Source of the DNA: Vibrio ziniensis
Lineage (GTDB): Bacteria > Pseudomonadota > Gammaproteobacteria > Enterobacterales > Vibrionaceae
Assembly (NCBI RefSeq): GCF_011064285.1
Contig: NZ_CP049331.1
Coordinates: forward strand, 186,001 to 250,000
Length of the DNA: 64,000 nucleotides
Direction of reading: 5' to 3'
A program made the position numbers and the translations under genes. Numbering within the stretch: the first letter of the stretch is position 1; each line of letters opens with the position of its first letter. The notes under the pieces are model-generated. The model ran no database searches, had not been told where the DNA came from, and saw only the letters and a list, made by a program, of their open reading frames with translations. Shown one piece after another: positions 45,063 to 56,029 of this stretch.

Positions 45063-45085
45063 ATTTTATGAAACGATGGTTTATA
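45063..45085. promoter_or_regulatory. Candidate KdgR-like operator upstream of the first pectate lyase
   Basis: ATTTTATGAAACGAT (45063-45077) is followed by GGTTTATA, giving an imperfect palindrome GAAAC-GATG-GTTT. The first 15 bases are identical to a site upstream of the second acetylesterase gene. The pattern resembles the KdgR operator of pectinolytic enterobacteria (GAAAY-RNT-GTTTY) but with one extra base in the centre. It lies 41-63 bases before the start codon. Confidence 0.55.
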
Positions 45086-45125: not shown

Positions 45126-46802
45126 ATGAAAAAGACTTACCTTGCTGTTGCTGTGATGGCAACGTTAGCGGGTTGCAGTACTAGCAACAACGCCACTTCT
45201 TCTGCCGCTGCCACATCTCCTGCCGAAGCAATTACTTATGATGCAAACAGCCCTTCTATTGGTGCAACAGGTTGGGCATCCGCTGATGGTCCAGTGACTG
45301 GCGGTGAAGGCGCTAAAGCTGAAAATATTTATGTGGTAGAAAACCGCGTTCAATTAGTTGAAGCGCTTTTTGGTAAAAAAGATGCGAACTTAAAAGCTGA
45401 ACCAAGCAACGAACGCAAAATTATTTATGTAAAAGGCACTATCGATTTAACTGAAGGTGCGGATGGTAAGTCTTTAACTGGTGCTGATTTTATTGCTCAG
45501 TGTCCAGATACAGGTTTCACGGATTACGATGCATTCTATGATGCTTATCGTAAAGCTTATGACCCTGCCGTATGGAACAAGCAGGACCTAGCTCGCAACG
45601 GTCGCCCACCGATGGTAAATGGTCCACTAGAAGATGCACGTAGTTGTTTCCAAAAAGCGCAAGAAGCACACACTGTACTACGTGTTGGTTCTAACACTTC
45701 CATTCTGGGTCTGGGTACCGATGCACAAATCAAATTTGGTACATTGCGTCTAGGTACTGCAGGTCGTGAGGCAGTAACAAACATTGTTATCCGTAATATT
45801 GAATTTAGCGATGCATTTGATTTCTTCCCACAATGGAGCCCAACTGACTCATTTAGCATCGATAAGAAAGAGCTAGGTCAAGGCAACTGTAGCGATAAAT
45901 TTGTTAGCGATACTGTAAACCCATACGGTTGTGCGAGTGCTGGTGGTGGCGGTCGTTGGAACTCTGAATACGATTTGATTGCGGTTGATAATGCTCAACG
46001 TGTTTGGATTGACCACAACACATTTAGCGATGGTGAGCGTACAGACGATAAGTTCCCACCAGTATGGGCTGCTCCTTACAACATCAAAGAGCAAAAAGTT
46101 CAGCACCATGATGGCCTAGTGGACATTACTAACGCTGCAACTAAAGTAACTTTGTCGTACAACATCTTTAAAGATCACGACAAAACTAACCTGCTAGGTG
46201 GTAGTGATTCATCAAATGCGAAAAAAGGTTATGGCCCTGGCGCAATTGATGTGACATTCAACCACAACATTTGGGATAACACTGGTCAACGCATGCCTCG
46301 TATCCGTTTTGGTCGTGTACACTCATACAACAACTACTTCAACCTGAATGCAACTAAGGATAAAGAAGCCGGTAAGTACGGCATGATGGATGCTCTTATC
46401 CTAGGTACCGCTTCAAAACTATACGCTGAGAACAACGTATTTGACATTAAAAACGATGGTGAAGGTACATTTGAACATAAGATTGTTGGTTACTACTCAC
46501 GTACTAACAACGAGCAAAAATGTATTAAGACCGGTGATTTTGATGAAGCATCATGCGGTACATATTTCTACGCTGCAGGAAACCAAGTTAATGGCGCAGC
46601 AGTTGATTTAAATAAAACTGTTGAAGCTAACCAAGCTAAATCAAGCAGCAACGCTAAATTAACTATGTTAAATCCAAATGATGAAAATTCATTCTGGTTG
46701 CCGAAGAAAACTTACCAATATCAAGTTGATTCAGTTGAAACATTGAAAGATCACCTACTAAATAATGCAGGTTCAGGAAAAATAGAAATTATTAAAAAAT
46801 AA
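45126..46802 (+). CDS. Pectate lyase, PL1 family, lipoprotein
   Basis: A 558-residue polysaccharide lyase that should cleave de-esterified homogalacturonan by beta-elimination. A lipoprotein signal (MKKTYLAVAVMATLAGC, Cys17, then Ser) is followed by a Ser/Ala/Thr-rich tether to about 40. The parallel beta-helix carries the PL1 landmarks: RVWIDHNTFSDGERTDD (about 292-308), FKDHDKTNLLGGSD (about 349-362) and MPRIRFGRVHSYNNYF (about 388-403). Residues 243-274 form an insert with two Cys that its neighbour lacks. The ATG at 45126 is chosen because it begins the signal peptide. Its Ser at +2 predicts the outer membrane. Confidence 0.9.
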   Translation: MKKTYLAVAVMATLAGCSTSNNATSSAAATSPAEAITYDANSPSIGATGWASADGPVTGGEGAKAENIYVVENRVQLVEALFGKKDANLKAEPSNERKIIYVKGTIDLTEGADGKSLTGADFIAQCPDTGFTDYDAFYDAYRKAYDPAVWNKQDLARNGRPPMVNGPLEDARSCFQKAQEAHTVLRVGSNTSILGLGTDAQIKFGTLRLGTAGREAVTNIVIRNIEFSDAFDFFPQWSPTDSFSIDKKELGQGNCSDKFVSDTVNPYGCASAGGGGRWNSEYDLIAVDNAQRVWIDHNTFSDGERTDDKFPPVWAAPYNIKEQKVQHHDGLVDITNAATKVTLSYNIFKDHDKTNLLGGSDSSNAKKGYGPGAIDVTFNHNIWDNTGQRMPRIRFGRVHSYNNYFNLNATKDKEAGKYGMMDALILGTASKLYAENNVFDIKNDGEGTFEHKIVGYYSRTNNEQKCIKTGDFDEASCGTYFYAAGNQVNGAAVDLNKTVEANQAKSSSNAKLTMLNPNDENSFWLPKKTYQYQVDSVETLKDHLLNNAGSGKIEIIKK

Positions 46803-46821
46803 TTTTTAAGCGTTAAATTTA

Positions 46822-46850
46822 AATGGGCTTCGTATGAAGCCCATTTTGGG
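46822..46850 (+). terminator. Terminator of the first pectate lyase gene
   Basis: AATGGGCTTC-GTAT-GAAGCCCATTTT lies 19 bases after the stop. Confidence 0.88.
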
Positions 46851-46984
46851 GTCTTGGTTTATGACAATGTTAGTTATTATTTTGTAGGGAGATAATGACT
46901 AGCATTGTTATTTGTCTGGCAAATGTGCCGAATAACTTATTTGTTCTCTTTGATTATTATTTGGTTAAATATTTTTGTAGGTAA

Positions 46985-48550
46985 ATGATGAGTAAGAAAT
47001 TATTAGCTTTGCTTTGCGCAAGTATACTCGCTGGCTGTGGTGGTGGCGGTTCTGGCTCTGGTTCAAGCGATAACAGTGATGATGTGGTTGATATCGGTGA
47101 GGATATTACCGGTGCGCTAACATCGTTAGGCGCCGATGGTTGGGCAGCCTCTTCTTTAGAAGTTACTGGTGGTAATGATGCTGCATCAGCTAACCAGTAT
47201 ATCGTCACAACTCGTGCTGAACTGATAGAAGCTCTGTACGGTAGTAGTGACACGGCTTTGTCCAAAGATCCAAGCAATACGTCAAAAATCATTTATATTC
47301 AGGGTACTATCGACTTGGCAGAAGGCGATGATGGCCAAACGATGGACGGTTCAGACTTCATTCAAGCTGCTAATGCAGATTCGAGTGCTAACTGTTCAAA
47401 GTATGGTCATACGGATATAGACACTTTCTATGATGAGTACAATGCAGAGTATGATCCAAATGGCGATTGGGGTAAAGCAGATGTGTCTGGAGAATTGGAA
47501 TTTGCTCGCCAGTGCTTCCAAAGATATCAGGCTACTCGAATGGTATTTCGCGTTGGTTCAAACACCTCTATCTTAGGTTTGGGTGAAGATGCGGAAATAA
47601 AGAATGGTATGCTGAGACTCGGTAAAAGTAGTGATACCGCGGTCGAAAATATTGTTATCCGCAACATTACTTTTAACGATGCGTTTGATCACTTTCCACA
47701 ATGGGACCCAACAGATTCTGATGGGCGCTGGAACTCACAATATGACTTGATTTCGGTGGAAAATGCCAAGGGTGTGTGGATTGACCACAATACTTTCAGT
47801 GATGGTGAACGAACCGATGATCAGTATCCATCAGTTTTTGCTTCTCCATACAACAACAAAGAACAAAAAGTTCAGCATCATGATGGCTTAGTGGACGTTA
47901 CCAGTGGGTCTACCCAGATTACTTTGTCTTACAACCATTTTAAAAACCACGATAAAACTAATTTGTTAGGTGGTAGCGATACTCCAGATAGGGATGACGG
48001 TTATGGCCCTGGTGCTATTGACGTTACCTTCCATCATAACTATTGGCAAAATGTTGGTCAGCGTTTACCTCGCGTGCGTTACGGTCGTGTACATGTGTAT
48101 AACAACTATTATAAGTTGGATGTATCTGGTAGTACTTCACCAACGTATTACATGGGTGATGCTATGACACTTGGCACTGCCGCTAAGTTGTATGTAGAAA
48201 ACAACGTGTACGATATCACTGGCAGTTATTCTAACAGTAAGCTTATTAAACTAAGCTCAAGCACGTCGAATCAAACTAAGTGTCTAACGGCTGGCTACAC
48301 AGCGGCTGAATGTGGCACCTACTACTATGCTACTGAAAACAAAGTTAATGGTTCTACCAAGAACTTAAACAGCATTGTTACAGGGCAGGAGTCAAGTAGC
48401 AGTGTGTCTGTGACAATTCTAGATCCAACAGATTCGAGCAGCTTCTGGCTACCGTCATTTTCTTATACTTACGAGACTGACAGCACTGATAATGTTAAAG
48501 AACTGGTATTAAGAAGCGCTGGTGCAGGTAAGTTAATCGAAGAAGAGTAA
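46985..48550 (+). CDS. Second pectate lyase, PL1 family, lipoprotein
   Basis: A 521-residue paralogue of the upstream lyase. A lipoprotein signal (KKLLALLCASILAGC, Cys18, then Gly) leads into a Gly/Ser/Asp-rich acidic tether to about 45. The catalytic segments are nearly the same as in the first copy: GVWIDHNTFSDGERTDD, FKNHDKTNLLGGSD and LPRVRYGRVHVYNNYY. The 32-residue Cys insert of the first copy is replaced by a direct SDGRWNSQYDL join. The two genes look like an old tandem duplication followed by divergence. ATG codons at 46985 and 46988 are both possible starts. Confidence 0.9.
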   Translation: MMSKKLLALLCASILAGCGGGGSGSGSSDNSDDVVDIGEDITGALTSLGADGWAASSLEVTGGNDAASANQYIVTTRAELIEALYGSSDTALSKDPSNTSKIIYIQGTIDLAEGDDGQTMDGSDFIQAANADSSANCSKYGHTDIDTFYDEYNAEYDPNGDWGKADVSGELEFARQCFQRYQATRMVFRVGSNTSILGLGEDAEIKNGMLRLGKSSDTAVENIVIRNITFNDAFDHFPQWDPTDSDGRWNSQYDLISVENAKGVWIDHNTFSDGERTDDQYPSVFASPYNNKEQKVQHHDGLVDVTSGSTQITLSYNHFKNHDKTNLLGGSDTPDRDDGYGPGAIDVTFHHNYWQNVGQRLPRVRYGRVHVYNNYYKLDVSGSTSPTYYMGDAMTLGTAAKLYVENNVYDITGSYSNSKLIKLSSSTSNQTKCLTAGYTAAECGTYYYATENKVNGSTKNLNSIVTGQESSSSVSVTILDPTDSSSFWLPSFSYTYETDSTDNVKELVLRSAGAGKLIEEE

Positions 48551-48929
48551 TCATCATTAATTAACTTATATAGAAAATGGATGCGAATATGCATCCATTT
48601 TTTTTATCTATCTTATCTTGTTTTTATATTTAAGTAACTTTATTTAAATTTGAATTGTTTTGATATTGTTAATTTAGTGATTGTGTGATTAAAAGCTATA
48701 TTGTTTGTTGATTTATTGTTCTTAATTATGTTTTTTGATTTTTTATATATTTTTCGATTTAAAAAATAATTTCCTGTTTTTTTATTGAACTGTGATTTAG
48801 ATAAAAAAAACGATATATGGTTTATTTTGAAATAGTGTTTTTCTTATTTTTATAAGATCAAACACAAATATTTATTTGATCTTTTAATATCATTACCGAT
48901 GAAATTTATAATTCTAAAATTCAATAGGT
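48551..48929. other. Very AT-rich intergenic region before the pectin methylesterase gene
   Basis: About 380 bases with long T and A runs and no credible gene. It holds the terminator of the second pectate lyase at its left end. A KdgR-like sequence GAAATAGTGTTTTTC (48829-48843), matching GAAAY-RNT-GTTTY, lies about 95 bases before the esterase gene. Confidence 0.55.
48575..48605 (+). terminator. Terminator of the second pectate lyase gene
   Basis: AAATGGATGC and GCATCCATTTTTTTT enclose a 6-base loop, 25 bases after the stop. Confidence 0.9.
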
Positions 48930-48935
48930 ATGAAT

Positions 48936-51515
48936 ATGAATAAGCATTTAAAGTACAGCTTACTTGCTATGAGTATTGCGCTTGCAGGTTGTGGCAGTGA
49001 TAGCGGTAGTTCGAGCACGGACAACAATGATAACAGCGGTGGTGATAATACTGGTGGCGATGTTGTAACTGCTACGTATTGTGAAACTGCACAAGAAGAA
49101 AAAGGCGAAAGTTTATATTTCTGTGATGACTTTTCTGATGCTTCAACATTTGCAACTAACTGGAAAAGTGTTGGCACCCACGATGGTAAATTTGTCATAG
49201 AAGATGACATTCTATGGTTTGAAAACGGTGCAACGGGGGGGCAACTTCTGATTGCAACTCCTGCTGTTGCTAGCTTGGTTCCTGAGTCTGGTGACTACTA
49301 TGTTGAAGCGAAAGTTCGTCTGCGTAACAATAACTCGACCGGTAGTAAGCGCACTTACCTCCTAGGTCGTTATACGGAAGACAGTCTTGGCTATTCAGCA
49401 GGTTTTAACTCGCAAGCTACTACAGAAGGTCAACGCGCAACCCTAGGTTACATCAACGGCGAAGGTACCGCAGATCATACCAACTATCCTTTTGCAATTG
49501 ATATGGGTTCAAAACACTCTTTAGCAAGTGATGGCTACACTGTAACTGAGCACAGCACAGATGGTACTTGGTACACTATACGTCTTGTTATGAACGGTAG
49601 TGAAATCTCTGCCTACGTTGATGATGTGCCATACGCAGGTTTTGATGGCACTGCAGGTGAAGCTAACTCGACTAACATCACTGACCCTGGTTCAATTGGT
49701 TTCTACAGTAAAAACCGTGCGTTTGAAGTAGATTACGTAATCATCGGTGATGCAGCCGATCTTCCTGCTTCAGTTAGTCTTGATGTTGACAGCGTGTGGG
49801 AACCGACTATCGGTGATGAGATGACTGTCACTGTTTCTGCGGTTCAAGCAGGTGGTGATGCAGATACAGTAACTATGACTAACTCAAATACTGAAGTTGT
49901 TGATGTTACCATCGGTGCAGATAACACGTTTACTTTGAAAGCGATGCAGGCAGGTACTGCGGAAGTAAGCTTTGCGCTAGATTCTGACCCAACTAAGGTA
50001 ACAACGCTATCTGTAACAGTAAACGAGGCTGTGGTTCTGCCAACGTTTGACTACGGTGATATTAGCGCTAAAGTGACTCCGACTGTTAATGCACAAGATC
50101 AACAGGTTGACGTTACTCTATCTTTGACTCTTGAAGGTACACCGACTCTAGGTGAGCGCGGTATCGTATACATCTATGATGCGAACACTAACGAGGTAGT
50201 TCAAGAGCTAAATGTGGGTGGTGATGTAACGACTGTTGGCTCAGTGACTTCTGGTAAAGTTCGTACTCTTAATTACTTCCCGGTTGTTTTAGATGGCAAT
50301 ACGGTAAACATCTACCCTAAAAAAGATGCGTTCACTGCAGGTGGTGAATACTACATCGCGATTAGTGAAGATGTAATTAACGGCGCGACACTAAATGGTG
50401 ATGAGTTCGTTGGTTTAGGTAAAAACCAATGGCAGTTTTCTATCGGTGCGGCTGTTGAAGCGAGTAAAACTGCTCTATCAGTTGGGCCAAGTGGTGATTT
50501 TGCAACTGTACAAGGAGCATTAAACTACTTTATGGATGACACTGCACTTAAGAACTCAGATAAAACCATCACACTAGAAGATGGTGTTTACTACGAAATG
50601 TTAATGCTACGTAACGTAAACAACCTAACTATCAAAGGTACTAGCCGCGAAGGTACGATTATTCGCCATGATAACCATGAAGCTCGTAACGGTGGCTCTA
50701 GTGGTCGTCCTCTAATGTTAGTAGAAAGTGCAGATATGTTAACTTTCGAAGACATTACTCTGGAAAATACACACCGTCGTACAGGTTCCTCAGACCAAGC
50801 GGAAGTTATTTACTTCAACAGTAACTACCGATTAGTGGCGAAAAACGCAAACTTCCTAAGTGAACAAGACACTATTCTCGTTAAAGGTTACAGTTGGTTC
50901 TACAACACGCTTGTAGCTGGTAACGTTGATTTTATCTGGGGTTACCCAAATGCAGCACTATTTGAGAACAGCGAAATCCGTACTATTGCGGACTCGAAAG
51001 CCGGCTCTGCTGATACTGCAACTGATGGTGGTTACGTACTGCAAGCACGTATCCCTGCAATTTATCAAACAGATGCTGCTGGAAATTATGTTCTTGATGA
51101 AGATGGCGCTAAAATTGTTATTGGTTCAGAGACTGGCTTTGTATTCCTAAACTCAAAATTCACTTTTGGTAAAGGTGTCCTAGGTAACGACGTTAAGGCT
51201 GGCTCAACTTACATAGCTCGTAGCGGTGGTGATGCAACATACTTCGATAATGTCACTCTAGTAAATTGTACTCTTGATACCCATATTGCAGATGTAGGTT
51301 ACGGTGGTGCGGCGGTTGATAAAGCGCCAACCCCAGGTATTGCAACTGCAACTGAAGGCTGGCGTATCGATGAGGCGAGCTTAGCAGCAAGCCCTATCAC
51401 AAATATGACAGATGAAGCGTATACATTAACAGCAGCTGAAGCAGAAGCTTATGATACTCGTGCAGAAGTATTCGCTGCTTATAACAGTGGTGCTGGCTGG
51501 AACCCTGCAGAATAA
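48936..51515 (+). CDS. Multidomain pectin methylesterase, CE8 family, lipoprotein
   Basis: An 859-residue surface esterase predicted to remove methyl groups from pectin. A lipoprotein signal (MNKHLKYSLLAMSIALAGC) precedes a Ser/Asp/Asn/Gly tether with SGGDNTGGD. Residues about 45-275 look like a laminin-G/concanavalin-like sandwich (WYTIRLVMNGSEISAYVDDV). Ig-like repeats cover about 280-510. The CE8 beta-helix (about 515-859) shows LSEQDTILVKGYSW (about 641) and GNVDFIWG (about 661) with both catalytic Asp. The usual GRPW is replaced by YIARSGGD near 760. ATG at 48936 is better spaced from AGG than the one at 48930. Confidence 0.88.
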   Translation: MNKHLKYSLLAMSIALAGCGSDSGSSSTDNNDNSGGDNTGGDVVTATYCETAQEEKGESLYFCDDFSDASTFATNWKSVGTHDGKFVIEDDILWFENGATGGQLLIATPAVASLVPESGDYYVEAKVRLRNNNSTGSKRTYLLGRYTEDSLGYSAGFNSQATTEGQRATLGYINGEGTADHTNYPFAIDMGSKHSLASDGYTVTEHSTDGTWYTIRLVMNGSEISAYVDDVPYAGFDGTAGEANSTNITDPGSIGFYSKNRAFEVDYVIIGDAADLPASVSLDVDSVWEPTIGDEMTVTVSAVQAGGDADTVTMTNSNTEVVDVTIGADNTFTLKAMQAGTAEVSFALDSDPTKVTTLSVTVNEAVVLPTFDYGDISAKVTPTVNAQDQQVDVTLSLTLEGTPTLGERGIVYIYDANTNEVVQELNVGGDVTTVGSVTSGKVRTLNYFPVVLDGNTVNIYPKKDAFTAGGEYYIAISEDVINGATLNGDEFVGLGKNQWQFSIGAAVEASKTALSVGPSGDFATVQGALNYFMDDTALKNSDKTITLEDGVYYEMLMLRNVNNLTIKGTSREGTIIRHDNHEARNGGSSGRPLMLVESADMLTFEDITLENTHRRTGSSDQAEVIYFNSNYRLVAKNANFLSEQDTILVKGYSWFYNTLVAGNVDFIWGYPNAALFENSEIRTIADSKAGSADTATDGGYVLQARIPAIYQTDAAGNYVLDEDGAKIVIGSETGFVFLNSKFTFGKGVLGNDVKAGSTYIARSGGDATYFDNVTLVNCTLDTHIADVGYGGAAVDKAPTPGIATATEGWRIDEASLAASPITNMTDEAYTLTAAEAEAYDTRAEVFAAYNSGAGWNPAE

Positions 51516-51549
51516 GTTTTAGTTTATTAAACTTAAATAACCAATAATC

Positions 51550-51577
51550 AATGCCGCTCTTAGGAGCGGCATTTTTT
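51550..51577 (+). terminator. Terminator of the pectin methylesterase gene
   Basis: AATGCCGCTC-TTAG-GAGCGGCATTTTTT is a perfect stem, 35 bases after the stop. Confidence 0.9.
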
Positions 51578-51699
51578 ATCTCAAATATTATGTAATACGT
51601 TGTTTTTGAAGACAGAACTAATCTGGGGTTGCTAACTCTTTGTCGAAGGGTAAGACGTTTGATTTATACCATTCTGGATAATTTCCTGATCAGTGAATA

Positions 51700-51769
51700 G
51701 GCGTCGATAAGCAAACTCTCCGAGCCATGGATTTCAGGGACGAATGAATGCGCGTTTGCGTTTGACGCC
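51700..51769. repeat. GC-rich 70-base inverted repeat
   Basis: GGCGTC (51700-51705) pairs with GACGCC (51764-51769), and GCAAAC (51711-51716) with GTTTGC (51754-51759), leaving a 37-base apical region. It may be a mobile-repeat remnant or a structured RNA. There is no associated open reading frame. Confidence 0.5.
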
Positions 51770-51906
51770 CATTCGCTGCTCTGCCGATGCTCAGTCTGAT
51801 CATATTTTTATATAGGATAGTATTAAGGAAAGAGTTGCTACTGCAGATGTATTTACAATTTACATCGTTATTGATTGATAATTGTGATTTAGGTTATTCG
51901 ACATAT

Positions 51907-51936
51907 AAAAAATCCGCCTCGATGAGACGGATTTTT
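51907..51936 (-). terminator. Terminator of the first acetylesterase gene
   Basis: AAAAATCCG-C-CTC and GAG-A-CGGATTTTT form a stem with one mismatch. Read leftward it is followed by TTTTTTATATG. It starts 29 bases beyond the stop. Confidence 0.8.
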
Positions 51937-51964
51937 ACTAACAATCTTGGGAGAACAACAACGC

Positions 51965-52876
51965 TTATTGAGTTGGAGCTTTGTATTCAACAATATGTGC
52001 CTGCAATTCAGTCAAGCTAGGGTTAGCTTTAATACCTTCTGCTGCTGCTTGGGCAATTAGTGTTGCAAACAGCTCTACAGGGTGGGTCCTGTCTGTTGAA
52101 GTGGATTTGACTTTATCGTAAGTGTAAAGCTCATTGTAAGCTTTCTCTTGGCCGTAAGATTCGACAATTTTCTTCGTCGCCTCTGTTAGGTCAACATAAG
52201 CTATATTATAGCGAGCTGCCAGTGCTTCCATTGCTGCAGGGTAATTACCACGCGCATAAGGTTCGTCTTTATTCAATTCAGTAAGGTTATGTTGACCTTT
52301 TTCAGTGATCTCAGAGCTCTCAAAATAGCCCCTTACAATCGGCGAAATCAAAATAGGTGTAGCGCCAGCGGCTTTTACATCTTCAACGTAGGATTTTAAG
52401 TTTAGGTAATAAGATCGATCTTTATCTTTGCAATTCTCAGCATCATCCGCAGTACTATTATTGCCGTCGTTACAGAAAGCATAAGTCCAGAATAAATTAT
52501 AATCCGCACGTTCTGCCGTTTTTTGATCGTTATGTCCAAATTGAATAATGACGTAGTCACCCTCAGCAATTGCGGGTTTGATATTTGGCCAATGTGGTAC
52601 TCCAGTCAGAGAGTAGTCATGGTAGCTTAATGAGCTACGTCCGCCACGAGCCCAGTTGTTCACTGCCGTTTGCTGATCAAAAAATTTCGGTAGCGCTTCA
52701 CCCCAACCCATCTGTGGACGTTGATGTTCATAGTTCGCCATTGTTGAGTCTCCGACCATATGAATTGTCACGGCTGAACCTTTGGTTGGTGTCACTATGG
52801 TCGTGTTATGACCACTACTACATGCAGCTAGCAGGCTACACACCGCTAAGCTAAGTGTTGTTCTATAAAAACGCAT
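51965..52876 (-). CDS. Acetylesterase, CE12 (SGNH hydrolase) family, lipoprotein
   Basis: A 303-residue esterase predicted to remove acetyl groups from pectin or rhamnogalacturonan. A lipoprotein signal (MRFYRTTLSLAVCSLLAAC, Cys19, then Ser) is followed almost at once by the catalytic domain. The four SGNH blocks are intact: MVGDSTMANY with Ser44, WARGGRSSLSY, IQFGHNDQK and the Asp/His pair in DRTHPVELFA near the C-terminus. It is a paralogue of the next gene to the right but lacks the tether and the C-terminal domains. Function on homogalacturonan rather than rhamnogalacturonan is inferred from the lyases and CE8 esterase beside it. Confidence 0.87.
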   Translation of the reverse strand: MRFYRTTLSLAVCSLLAACSSGHNTTIVTPTKGSAVTIHMVGDSTMANYEHQRPQMGWGEALPKFFDQQTAVNNWARGGRSSLSYHDYSLTGVPHWPNIKPAIAEGDYVIIQFGHNDQKTAERADYNLFWTYAFCNDGNNSTADDAENCKDKDRSYYLNLKSYVEDVKAAGATPILISPIVRGYFESSEITEKGQHNLTELNKDEPYARGNYPAAMEALAARYNIAYVDLTEATKKIVESYGQEKAYNELYTYDKVKSTSTDRTHPVELFATLIAQAAAEGIKANPSLTELQAHIVEYKAPTQ

Positions 52877-52913
52877 TGTACAGTGCCTCTATATTGATAC
52901 CGGATAAATGAAC

Positions 52914-52946
52914 AAAACCCAGTTGCCTGGCAACTGGGTTTTTATT
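52914..52946 (-). terminator. Terminator of the second acetylesterase gene
   Basis: AAAACCCAGTTGCC and the complementary GGCAACTGGGTTTTT share a tight loop. It lies between the two acetylesterase genes and can work in both directions. Confidence 0.85.
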
Positions 52947-52965
52947 TTTTAATCAGTGAATTAGA

Positions 52966-54750
52966 TTATTCGCCGCTTAGACCATCGATACTTACATCGT
53001 AAAGAGCAAGGTAACGGCCACCTTCAGATGCAGACTTCATCCAAGGGTAGATACGAACGTAGATAGCGCTATCAACTGGAACTTGCTCAGTCACAGGGTA
53101 CTCAAATTGCTCCATAACATCTTTAGTCAAGGTTAACTCTGTTGCTACTGTTACTGGGCTACTAAAATCAGCAGATAGTGAGTAAGCAATATTTGCTGTT
53201 ACGTTACTGGTACCGCTTGACGCAAAGTAAGCAGAAATTGATGTAACATTAAATGGTTGGCTCGCTGCCGTAACTTTAAATTCAATGTATTTGTCGCTGC
53301 TGTAGTCATGGTCAGAATAGACACGTGCTGTTACTGTATCTTGACCATTTATCGCATAGATCTTGTCAGAACCAAAGCCCTTAGTTAGCGCTTCTGAAAG
53401 TGTGACTTCAGCACCAGTTACTAGGCCATCAGCAGTTGCAGTTAAGTCGCCTTTACCCGCTGTAAACCAGTTTGAGTATGACTCAACACTTGCACCAATC
53501 GCAACACCTTCACCGCTTACGGCTAGAGTTTCAAGAGTATTTCCGTCTTGAAGTAGCTCTAAGTTACCTGTGTAAGATTTTTCTTCTGTAGGCGTAAACT
53601 GTACGTATACATCTTCAGTGAACGCACCGTTAGTGTAGGCAATCTCAAATGATTGCTCCCAAGTTTCAGAACTGCTTGTGTCTGCTAGTTTAAAACCGTC
53701 TGGTGAAGTTACTGTGATAGTACCTGTCTCAGGAGTTAGTGAGAATGCAGATAGTGTGATTGATTTAGTTTCAGAAACGTCAAGGTAACGTTTACCGAAG
53801 TCTAACTCAGATGGGTTCGCAACAATCATTGTATCTGCCGCCACGATGTGGTCAGTCATGATACCTAACTCTTGCAGGCCTTCAGCTGCTGCTTTAGCAA
53901 TCAATGCCGCATAGAGTTCGTTCGGGTGAGTACTATCGTTGTAGTATAGGTTGGTATAACCGCTAGGACCGTACTGCTCAACGATTGTTTTAGTTGCTGC
54001 AGTTAAATCAACATATGGAATGCTGTAACGTTCTGCTAGTGCTTCCATTGCTGCTGGGTAATCACCACGAGCAACAGTTTCACTACCTAAGATACCAATA
54101 TTGTGCTGACCTTTTTCACTGATCACATCACCTTCAAAGTACGCACGTACAATTGGTGACATTAAGATCGGTTGCGCACCCATAGCTTGAGTCTCTTCTA
54201 CAAACTTCTTCAAGTTTAGGTAGTAAGAATGCTCTGTATCAGTACATGCTTCTGCGCCGTCTGCTGTGGTTGAACCATCGCTACAGAAAGCGTAAGTACC
54301 GTATTGCTCGTAATCAGAACCGTATTTTTGATCGTTATGACCAAACTGGATAATAACGTAATCGCCTTCAACAAGAGTTGGTTGGATATTGGGCCAGTGT
54401 GGGTTTTTACTTGGATCGTAATTGTAGAAACTTAGTGAACTACGACCACCACGAGCCCAGTTATTAACTGCAGTGTCTTCATCAAAGAACATTGGCATTT
54501 GTTCGGCCCAACCCATTTGTGGGCGACGGTCTTCTGTATACGGTGCCATTGTTGAGTCACCGATCATATGAATTGTCAGAGCAGTACCAGCAGTAGGAGT
54601 GACGAGGGAGGTATTGTATTCAGTGTTGTCTCCACCGGTGTTATCACCACCTGTGTTATCGCCAGTAGAAGAGGAACCACCAGAGTCGCTACCACATGCA
54701 GCTAATAAGCCACATACAGCAAAAGCAAGTGCAGATTTATAAAATTTCAT
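52966..54750 (-). CDS. Multidomain acetylesterase, CE12 (SGNH) family, lipoprotein
   Basis: A 594-residue esterase. The lipoprotein signal (MKFYKSALAFAVCGLLAAC, Cys19, then Gly) leads into a tether with three GDNTG-type repeats (about 29-45). The SGNH domain (about 55-325) has MIGDSTMAPY with Ser66, WARGGRSSLSF, IQFGHNDQK and NDSTHPNELY. Two further beta-rich domains follow: an Ig-like one (about 330-440, LDFGKRYLDVSETKSITL) and a C-terminal sandwich (about 445-594) that may bind polysaccharide. The ATG at 54748-54750 starts the signal peptide. The first 20 residues and catalytic blocks show descent from the same ancestor as the neighbouring copy. Confidence 0.87.
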   Translation of the reverse strand: MKFYKSALAFAVCGLLAACGSDSGGSSSTGDNTGGDNTGGDNTEYNTSLVTPTAGTALTIHMIGDSTMAPYTEDRRPQMGWAEQMPMFFDEDTAVNNWARGGRSSLSFYNYDPSKNPHWPNIQPTLVEGDYVIIQFGHNDQKYGSDYEQYGTYAFCSDGSTTADGAEACTDTEHSYYLNLKKFVEETQAMGAQPILMSPIVRAYFEGDVISEKGQHNIGILGSETVARGDYPAAMEALAERYSIPYVDLTAATKTIVEQYGPSGYTNLYYNDSTHPNELYAALIAKAAAEGLQELGIMTDHIVAADTMIVANPSELDFGKRYLDVSETKSITLSAFSLTPETGTITVTSPDGFKLADTSSSETWEQSFEIAYTNGAFTEDVYVQFTPTEEKSYTGNLELLQDGNTLETLAVSGEGVAIGASVESYSNWFTAGKGDLTATADGLVTGAEVTLSEALTKGFGSDKIYAINGQDTVTARVYSDHDYSSDKYIEFKVTAASQPFNVTSISAYFASSGTSNVTANIAYSLSADFSSPVTVATELTLTKDVMEQFEYPVTEQVPVDSAIYVRIYPWMKSASEGGRYLALYDVSIDGLSGE

Positions 54751-54924
54751 AATACATGCCTTATATTTATTTGTTTCCCTATGCCGAGCCAAAAACAGCA
54801 TAGACGCTTAAGTTCAATGAAAGGAATTTAGAGCAATTTTACTAGGTGTTAAATGCTGAAACTGGCAAAGTGTAAGGTGTATCAACAAAGTTCCATTTTT
54901 TTTATAAAAAATGAGTTTCAGATC

Positions 54925-54944
54925 AAAATATCGTTTCATAAAAT
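54925..54944. promoter_or_regulatory. Candidate KdgR-like operator upstream of the second acetylesterase gene
   Basis: ATCGTTTCATAAAAT (54930-54944) is, on the minus strand, ATTTTATGAAACGAT. This is identical over 15 bases to the site at 45063-45077 before the first pectate lyase. Here the right half is ATTTTGAT rather than GGTTTATA. It is 180-195 bases before the start codon. Confidence 0.5.
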
Positions 54945-54993
54945 ACGATCAAATATTTTATATTGATTTTATGTATTTTAAATATAAAAAATA

Positions 54994-55023
54994 ATAGCCC
55001 TGATAATATCTTATCAGGGCTAT
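54994..55023 (-). terminator. Terminator of the discoidin-domain gene
   Basis: ATAGCCCTGATAA-TATC-TTATCAGGGCTAT is a perfect stem. Read leftward it is followed by TATTTTTTATATTT. Confidence 0.9.
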
Positions 55024-55064
55024 ATATACTCAGTATGTATTTATGGTTTCAATGTGTTGGTGTG

Positions 55065-55535
55065 CTAGAATTGAACTTCTGTAATACCAGTCCAGCTCTT
55101 TGATACGTCTGTGCCGTAACCGTTAATGCGAGCATATTTTGCTTTTACAGGTGCGAATTCAAAACGCTCTAGCTCTTTGGTTGTGCCGCTTGTTGCTGTT
55201 TCTTTTAAAGCAGTCGTCCATGTTTTGCCGTCCATAGAGACTTCAAGGTCAAATTTTTGCTTACGCTCATCACCCTTAAATGCTGCTACTTGGACGTGAG
55301 ACAGGGTTTGTTCGCCATCGAAATCAAATTGAATCCAAGCTTCATCACGCTGAGCCCAACGAGTTTTTAGGCTACCATCAACAGCATTTCTTGCTTCGTG
55401 ATTTTTATCATGACCATTTGACGATACATTTACGATAGCTGTGGATGCTGCGCTAGCGTCGCTGCCGCCAGTAGATGAACAACCTGTTACCGCTAATACA
55501 CTCATAAGAGAGGCAAATAATAGAGTTTTTTTCAT
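55065..55535 (-). CDS. Stand-alone discoidin (F5/8 type C) domain lipoprotein
   Basis: A 156-residue protein. A lipoprotein signal (MKKTLLFASLMSVLAVTGC, Cys19, then Ser) and a short Ser/Ala tether are followed by one F5/8 type C or CBM32-like beta-sandwich (about 36-156). Typical pieces are ARNAVDGSLKTRWAQRDEAW, IQFDFDGEQTLSHVQVA and a C-terminal YARINGYGTD. There is no catalytic domain. It may hold galacturonan at the cell surface or help the neighbouring enzymes. The ATG at 55533-55535 follows GGGA; an upstream TTG is less likely. It is transcribed leftward ahead of the acetylesterase genes but has its own terminator. Confidence 0.82.
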   Translation of the reverse strand: MKKTLLFASLMSVLAVTGCSSTGGSDASAASTAIVNVSSNGHDKNHEARNAVDGSLKTRWAQRDEAWIQFDFDGEQTLSHVQVAAFKGDERKQKFDLEVSMDGKTWTTALKETATSGTTKELERFEFAPVKAKYARINGYGTDVSKSWTGITEVQF

Positions 55536-56029
55536 AATCAATCCCGCTGTTTAAATAAATGTAGTGACTTAAAAAATGCTAATATGCTTTAAAGAATATT
55601 GTTTATGAAGGGTGTATTCGAGGGTTAACTTAATTATATGGGCTTTCGATCAATCAAATTATTATATTTTTATTCGATTTTGTTAACTGAAGCAAAGAAA
55701 TTGCAATTAAATGGATTTTATTTTTTATAAAATATAAAAATGCGTTTCTTTTTTAGTGAAACTATTTTTGTGATCTGTGTATTATTAAGTTATTGCTGAT
55801 ATTTAATTAAATGATGTTGCCTTTAAGTCAGAATAAGTCATGCCTCTTACAGAAAATTAGGCAGTGGTTTTCGATAAGGATCTTATAACATATTGATTCT
55901 ACTTGATTTGTAAACGTCAGGTGGCCGCAGGACTATTATTTAACTAATAAAAGGTTCCGACCATCAGAAAGCTAGAAATTACTCGCTAAATTATGCACTA
56001 TAATCATTCGTTTTCCATGGAAGGTTACT
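55536..56029. other. AT-rich divergent promoter region at the right edge of the pectin cluster
   Basis: 494 bases without a credible gene, very AT-rich between 55600 and 55860. It holds the leftward promoter of the discoidin gene and the rightward promoter of modF. TTTTAGTGAAACTATTTTTG (55751-55770) is a weaker relative of the operator-like motif found elsewhere in the cluster. Confidence 0.5.

Follow-up and report, generated by a model that had tools for sequence, protein, structure and literature searches.

What do six adjoining genes between groEL and modF of Vibrio ziniensis, all of them apparently directed at pectin, do together, and how did they come to occupy this place? Positions are given in the window, the whole stretch of 64,000 nucleotides that was analysed (contig NZ_CP049331.1, 186,001 to 250,000). 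A sequence-only reading had proposed a pectin gene set of six at this site, and family and fold searches confirmed it: the interval encodes two PL1 lyases, a divergent CE8 protein, two CE12 esterases and a CBM32-type discoidin protein (O1-O6, Table 1). All six reading frames are intact, and motifs are retained. The set had also been described as having no transporter or intracellular pathway of its own. This holds for the locus, where a family search of the ORFs found no transporter or regulator among O1-O6, and which does not classify as a PUL; it fails for the genome, which encodes both elsewhere. The locus is probably a cell-surface, KdgR-controlled front end of pectin degradation that was assembled stepwise, its activity, exposure, binding and order of events being predicted from sequence. 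The enzyme families are ordinary, and it is the all-lipoprotein, regulon-linked arrangement that looks unusual for the genus.

Table 1. Features of the groEL-modF interval (positions in the window; operator scores are from the position weight matrix, PWM).
Feature	Position	Strand	Evidence
O1, PL1 pectate lyase lipoprotein, long type	45126..46802	+	PF00544 1.8e-35; 4hwv 3.9e-89; lipobox LAGC
O2, second PL1 pectate lyase lipoprotein	46985..48550	+	PF00544 4e-41; lipobox LAGC
O3, lipoprotein with CBM66-like domain (about 63-277), middle region and divergent CE8 domain (about 511-861)	48930..51515	+	
O4, CE12-type SGNH acetylesterase lipoprotein	51965..52876	-	PF13472 1.3e-13; 1deo 7.7e-9; lipobox LAAC
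O5, CE12-type SGNH acetylesterase lipoprotein with C-terminal beta region	52966..54750	-	O4 paralog (64%)
O6, CBM32 (discoidin) lipoprotein, probable polygalacturonate binder	55065..55535	-	YeCBM32 2jd9 1.2e-26
KdgR-like operator 5' of O1, TATGAAACGATGGTTTATA	45067..45085	+	PWM score 14.1; 1/300 shuffles as high
Weak, uncertain KdgR-like site 5' of O3	48826..48844	+	score 11.3; 25/300 shuffles as high
KdgR-like operator 5' of O5, TATGAAACGATATTTTGAT	54922..54940	-	score 14.7; 0/300 shuffles as high
KdgR-like site, O6-modF spacer	55733..55751	-	score 12.5; 4/300 shuffles as high
MITE-like dispersed repeat between O3 and O4	51662..51825		two further genomic copies

O1 and O2 belong to PL1, matching Pectate_lyase_4 with 122.9 and 141.4 bits against a cut-off of 24, and are 55% identical to each other in the alignment. 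The motifs HHDGLVD and QR-PR-R-G, which we take to hold the Ca-binding and catalytic residues of PL1, are conserved in all six aligned PL1 sequences, O1 and O2 included. Both proteins are putative pectate lyases that would cleave polygalacturonate by elimination. Three further PL1 genes are found elsewhere in this genome.

The C-terminal domain of O3 is a parallel beta-helix of CE8 type. Whole-protein searches with O3 were misleading, giving neither PF01095 nor a sensible PDB match until the domain was cut out. Residues Q623, Q646, D647 and D667 are invariant in 13 aligned sequences and align with 1gq8, the last three also with two classic CE8 proteins of the same genome. CE8 enzymes use two catalytic Asp and two Gln, and have an active-site Arg and a Trp within the loop LGRPW. 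In the alignment with the two classic CE8 proteins of the genome, this loop is absent from O3, which makes its esterase activity less sure. R764, invariant in the 13 sequences, is a candidate active-site Arg with no Trp two residues on; the alignments of this loop do not agree with one another.

O4 and O5 fall into CE12, with an SGNH fold and its Ser, Gly, Asn and Asp-His blocks. The fold comparison barely covers the C-terminal part of O5. Neither reaches the PaeY equivalog level (84.8 and 59.9 bits against a cut-off of 1000). Action on acetylated homogalacturonan had been assumed for these families; for O4 and O5 the target may be homogalacturonan or rhamnogalacturonan, as the nearest solved relative of O4 (1deo) is a rhamnogalacturonan acetylesterase. 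O6 aligns with YeCBM32 of Yersinia enterocolitica over 122 residues and retains the Trp that is described as critical for polygalacturonate binding in the available part of PMC5651945. An Arg is aligned as well, for which a role may be suggested by analogy with AlyQ.

All six cluster ORFs, but none of the 37 others in the window that reach 150 aa, showed lipoprotein signals in a pattern test. The residue at position +2, which in lipoprotein sorting indicates the membrane of destination, is Ser or Gly in the cluster proteins; outer-membrane anchoring of O1-O6 is therefore predicted, and the proteins may be exposed at the cell surface.

The remainder of the pathway is encoded at several remote loci. 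Chromosome 2 carries, at 940-970 kb, KdgR, a PL22 oligogalacturonate lyase (1.5e-200), a sodium symporter, a PemA-like esterase, a PelX-like lyase, a KdgM porin, a sugar-type ABC transporter and a PelW-like lyase. KduI, a TRAP-like transporter (by eye), an IclR regulator, KDPG aldolase, a PfkB kinase and an SDR protein are encoded on chromosome 1 near 1.37 Mb, and a fused PemA-PaeY-like protein near 2.72 Mb. The labels PelX, PelW, PemA and PaeY mean likeness, all these proteins scoring below the NCBIfam equivalog cut-offs, while KdgR lies above its own (429.2 bits against 275).

A candidate regulatory link between the cluster and these loci is a palindromic 19-mer, attGAAAcgncgTTTcaat, learned from 16 upstream regions of pectin genes outside the cluster (log-likelihood 42.5, against 26.7-33.6 in 12 dinucleotide shuffles). 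The first motif run had included the cluster genes, and the motif was therefore retrained without them. In the first run width 19 had given the motif, with 60.0 against 39.1-48.2 in four shuffles, and a similar motif of width 20 had given 61.1 against 41.9-55.4; a fixed-core search and widths 15-18 returned noise or A/T runs. Within the training set, OGL, PemA, PelX, Eda and RpiB score 2.3 or less, KdgR 8.3 and KduI 9.3; some low-scoring genes have short spacers and may sit within operons. Upstream regions of the cluster score 14.7 (O5), 14.1 (O1), 12.5 (O6), 11.3 (O3), 6.8 (O4) and 5.9 (O2), the operator thus being weak at O2, O3 and O4, and their sum of 65.4 compares with 35.9 +- 6.2 in shuffles, none of 500 being as high. 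The median over 37 control upstream regions of the window is 3.3; the top control (12.5) is the O6-modF spacer itself, followed by 10.3. An inverted pair of 37 nt (73%) corresponds to the O1 and O5 upstream regions including the operator.

Since the motif width was chosen after the cluster data had been seen, other vibrios offer a more independent check. Seven of ten upstream regions of their PL1 and CE8 genes score 12.4 to 15.8, the low scorers being the PL1 (9.4) and CE8 (7.7) of Vibrio sp. S17_S38 and the second PL1 of V. xiamenensis (0.6). Only two of 153 controls, from which the genes under test had been removed beforehand, reach 11; both belong to the V. litoralis locus, and one is the spacer shared with its PL1. 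That PL1 is preceded by a block (L052 2150-8182) which, by eye, contains TRAP-like genes and possibly a GH105; the KdgR-like box of its first regulator-like ORF, at 17.3, outscores every other control. The O1 box is near-identical before the PL1 of V. plantisponsor. A KdgR and a shared palindromic operator are thus both present in the genome; gene context suggests the name KdgR-like, and KdgR would be expected to bind at the predicted sites and to be released by pectin intermediates.

The distribution of the cluster genes was surveyed in 196 vibrio genomes, an even sample of a larger group in which each species is represented once. Five of them (G000, G144, G156, G162, G183) have the O3 type at full length and G141 has its C-terminal part alone, while some match is seen in 14. 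Near-full-length copies of the long PL1 likewise occur in five (G000, G095, G144, G162, G183), with some match in 19. CE12 of the O4/O5 type occurs in this genome only (some match in 25), and the esterase domain has no match above 32% identity in the other vibrios of the survey. CBM32 domains of the O6 kind were matched in 74 of the 196, mostly within longer frames; the closest outside match (52%) belongs to an oligogalacturonate-type locus of G093, where it adjoins a KdgM-like porin, a PL2 lyase (Pfam) and aldolase-like and kinase-like genes (by eye). When the PL1 alignment was used as query, 36 loci were retrieved, and no homologs of O4, O5 or O6 were found in these stretches (tblastn, 1e-6).

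In Vibrio sp. S17_S38 and V. xiamenensis PL1 adjoins an O3-type CE8, and one Azohydromonas locus of the PL1 scan has a weak CE8 match. An order-wide draw of 394 genomes yielded O3 matches in 11. Four genomes from other genera of the order have the O3 type as part of proteins of 2049-2392 aa in which PL1 sequence follows CE8; these have a lipoprotein-like start (by eye) and lie directly 3' of receptor-like genes. With Pfam, both CE8 and PL1 were verified in two of the four proteins, and a TonB-dependent receptor beside a third. As CE8 and PL1 are fused in one frame in other families, O3 and the PL1 lyases may be regarded as partners. On a more speculative reading, less likely than not, the cluster would be a tethered pectin-dismantling array, a split counterpart of these CE8-PL1 lipoprotein-like fusions of some 2000 residues, and O3 a member of a CE8 branch in which a rebuilt substrate-binding loop could have replaced LGRPW.

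Sixteen other modF regions were read, comprising those of the closest modF relatives and of PL1 or CE8 carriers, and the six-gene set is found at none of them. The earlier suggestion of a compact, variable pectin locus is thereby supported at the level of species, with one genome covered for each. groEL lies within 8 kb of modF in 15 of the 16 sites, and V. plantisponsor, whose modF is 93% identical to that of this genome, is the sole case among the 15 with a PL1 gene, a single one, between the two. In G162 a PL1 gene stands just before modF, with no groEL in the stretch; common ancestry at the site was considered for it and dropped, as the tree does not join it to O1 (open fork, 83/72). The remaining 14 sites have none of the six genes, ten of them having spacers of about 1 kb or less and four unrelated-looking ORFs (L019, L025, L028, L031). 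By eye, the interval of G047 contains two near-identical ORFs resembling group II intron reverse transcriptases (L019 7734-12585), that of G141 transposase-like ORFs and seemingly copper-resistance genes (L025 4673-12377), and that of G143 a 1296-aa ORF, perhaps pullulanase-like (L028 9631-13521). The start of the latter resembles a 1229-aa lipoprotein-like ORF (L046 8421-12110) beside the oligogalacturonate locus of the present genome. A frame change in the assembly interrupts modF of G010 (L026 2720-4166).

The statement that there is no transposase is correct for the six genes but omits a MITE-like repeat of about 165 bp between O3 and O4, the sole mobile-like trace found in the interval. 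Its two further copies, 89% identical, are situated at C1:1944924 and C1:3156640; the aligned copies run from near ATACCATTCTGG to near TAGGATGGTAT, the two ends being imperfectly inverted, and folding of the strand gives a hairpin. Among the 196 vibrio genomes, only short matches to the repeat were found, in four others. Long direct repeats, considered as possible integration marks, proved to be the paralogous pairs O1/O2 and O4/O5. There was no Rfam match at the gathering threshold, and the window contains no tRNA.

Could a single horizontal transfer have brought all six genes, as the description of a cluster inserted in a core gene region might imply? The proposed check of GC and codon use gave a divided answer, with low GC in the spacers and lower GC3 in favour of such an island, and ordinary codon use, which carries no sign of recent transfer, against it. 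The absence of the cluster genes from close relatives also speaks for an island, as do relatives of O3 and O5, 66-80% identical, on contigs of equal size (P0004 and P0010, 18,496 bp; P0005 and P0013, 63,933 bp), which points to possible linkage of CE8 and CE12 genes elsewhere. On the other side, the ORFs of the interval include no integrase or transposase, the paralogs within each of the pairs O1/O2 and O4/O5 have diverged, and in the PL1 tree, where the eight vibrio rows form one clade (95/96), O1 is sister, with support of 100/100, to the PL1 occupying the same site in V. plantisponsor, the promoter box being conserved; O2 joins, with weak support (82/69), the CE8-paired PL1 of V. xiamenensis. 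Arrival of the six genes as one unit is thus rather unlikely, and the insertion was probably not one event. Since O1 has its sister in place in V. plantisponsor, it may be older at the site than O2-O6. Tree and sites fit stepwise growth of the locus, with loss in V. plantisponsor as a possibility.

The function of the cluster may also be read differently. If the same enzymes faced the periplasm, they would process porin-imported oligomers rather than external polymer. YeCBM32, the nearest solved relative of O6, is described as a periplasmic polygalacturonate binder in the title of its reference, and the genome encodes a KdgM porin. However, PL1 lyases, the CBM66-like domain and long Gly/Ser/Asp/Asn tethers fit a polymer at the surface, the fused CE8-PL1 homologs stand directly 3' of receptor-like genes (one of four checked by Pfam), and PelX- and PelW-like proteins, which are periplasmic enzyme types, are already encoded elsewhere in the genome; a periplasmic role is improbable. 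Still another uronate polymer, such as alginate, could be the target, alginate lyases also having CBM32 domains and one of alginate-lyase origin matching O6 nearly as well as YeCBM32 (3.5e-23), or the locus could be a decayed relic, as the divergence of O3 might indicate. Yet PL1, CE8 and CE12 are pectin-type families, the operator is common to the cluster and the pectin genes of the genome, and neither frames nor motifs are damaged, so that alginate is the less likely target of O6, judged from context, and such alternatives taken together are very improbable.

The surface front end that we prefer would operate as follows. The six lipoproteins would be exported, lipid-anchored and, as predicted, placed in the outer membrane, where O6 would retain polygalacturonate close to the cell. 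Methyl esters would be stripped by O3 and acetyl groups by O4 and O5, after which O1 and O2 would cleave the exposed polygalacturonate to unsaturated oligomers. These may enter through the KdgM-type porin together with ABC or other uptake systems, whose genes lie on chromosome 2, and be degraded by PL22, KduI, the SDR protein (KduD-like), the PfkB kinase (KdgK-like) and KDPG aldolase. A KdgR-type repressor probably co-switches the cluster and several of the remote pathway genes. The slot would have been filled stepwise, with one PL1 probably present in the common ancestor with V. plantisponsor; O2-O6 would have joined O1 later or been lost in V. plantisponsor.

Pectinolysis of the Dickeya type follows the same order of reactions under KdgR-type control, and PemA-, PaeY-, PelX- and PelW-like proteins are encoded along with KdgR in the present genome. 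O3, however, is distant from PemA in sequence, and the enzymes here are tethered lipoproteins, whereas Dickeya secretes its cell-wall-degrading enzymes by type 2 secretion, according to the accessible part of PMC9239104. A PL1-CE8 protein with a lipobox is already published: Pd5_PL1 of Catenovulum sp. CCB-QB4, for which action at the cell surface was proposed (PMC7953866, in its available part). That is one fused, plasmid-borne protein, while here separate chromosomal lipoproteins, with two CE12 proteins and a CBM32 in addition, stand at groEL-modF; the two sets are compared by description only. O6 shares with YeCBM32 (2jd9) the CBM32 domain and the aligned Trp, and has a lipoprotein signal. 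Within the genus, where pectin genes are called rarely recognised (PMC12625758, available part), the plant-associated V. porteresiae MSSRF30 has PL1 and CE8 genes and grows on pectin. Its clusters, likewise compared by description only, include transporters, porins and regulators, and the same part of that source makes no mention of the groEL-modF site or of lipoproteins for them. The literature covered, with most subscription journals outside its scope, yielded no paper on a Vibrio pectin cluster at groEL-modF. A paper of 2017 reportedly dealt with laterally acquired pectin degradation in marine gammaproteobacteria.

The divergent CE8 branch represented by O3 is worth a structure. By way of a shared operator, as predicted, the locus connects enzymes of the cell surface with a pathway encoded far away, and it offers a testable case of how a cell-attached pectin system is built up, one gene after another, in a chromosomal slot that varies. 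If the tethered array is real, this vibrio would degrade esterified pectin directly at its surface and lose little of the product.
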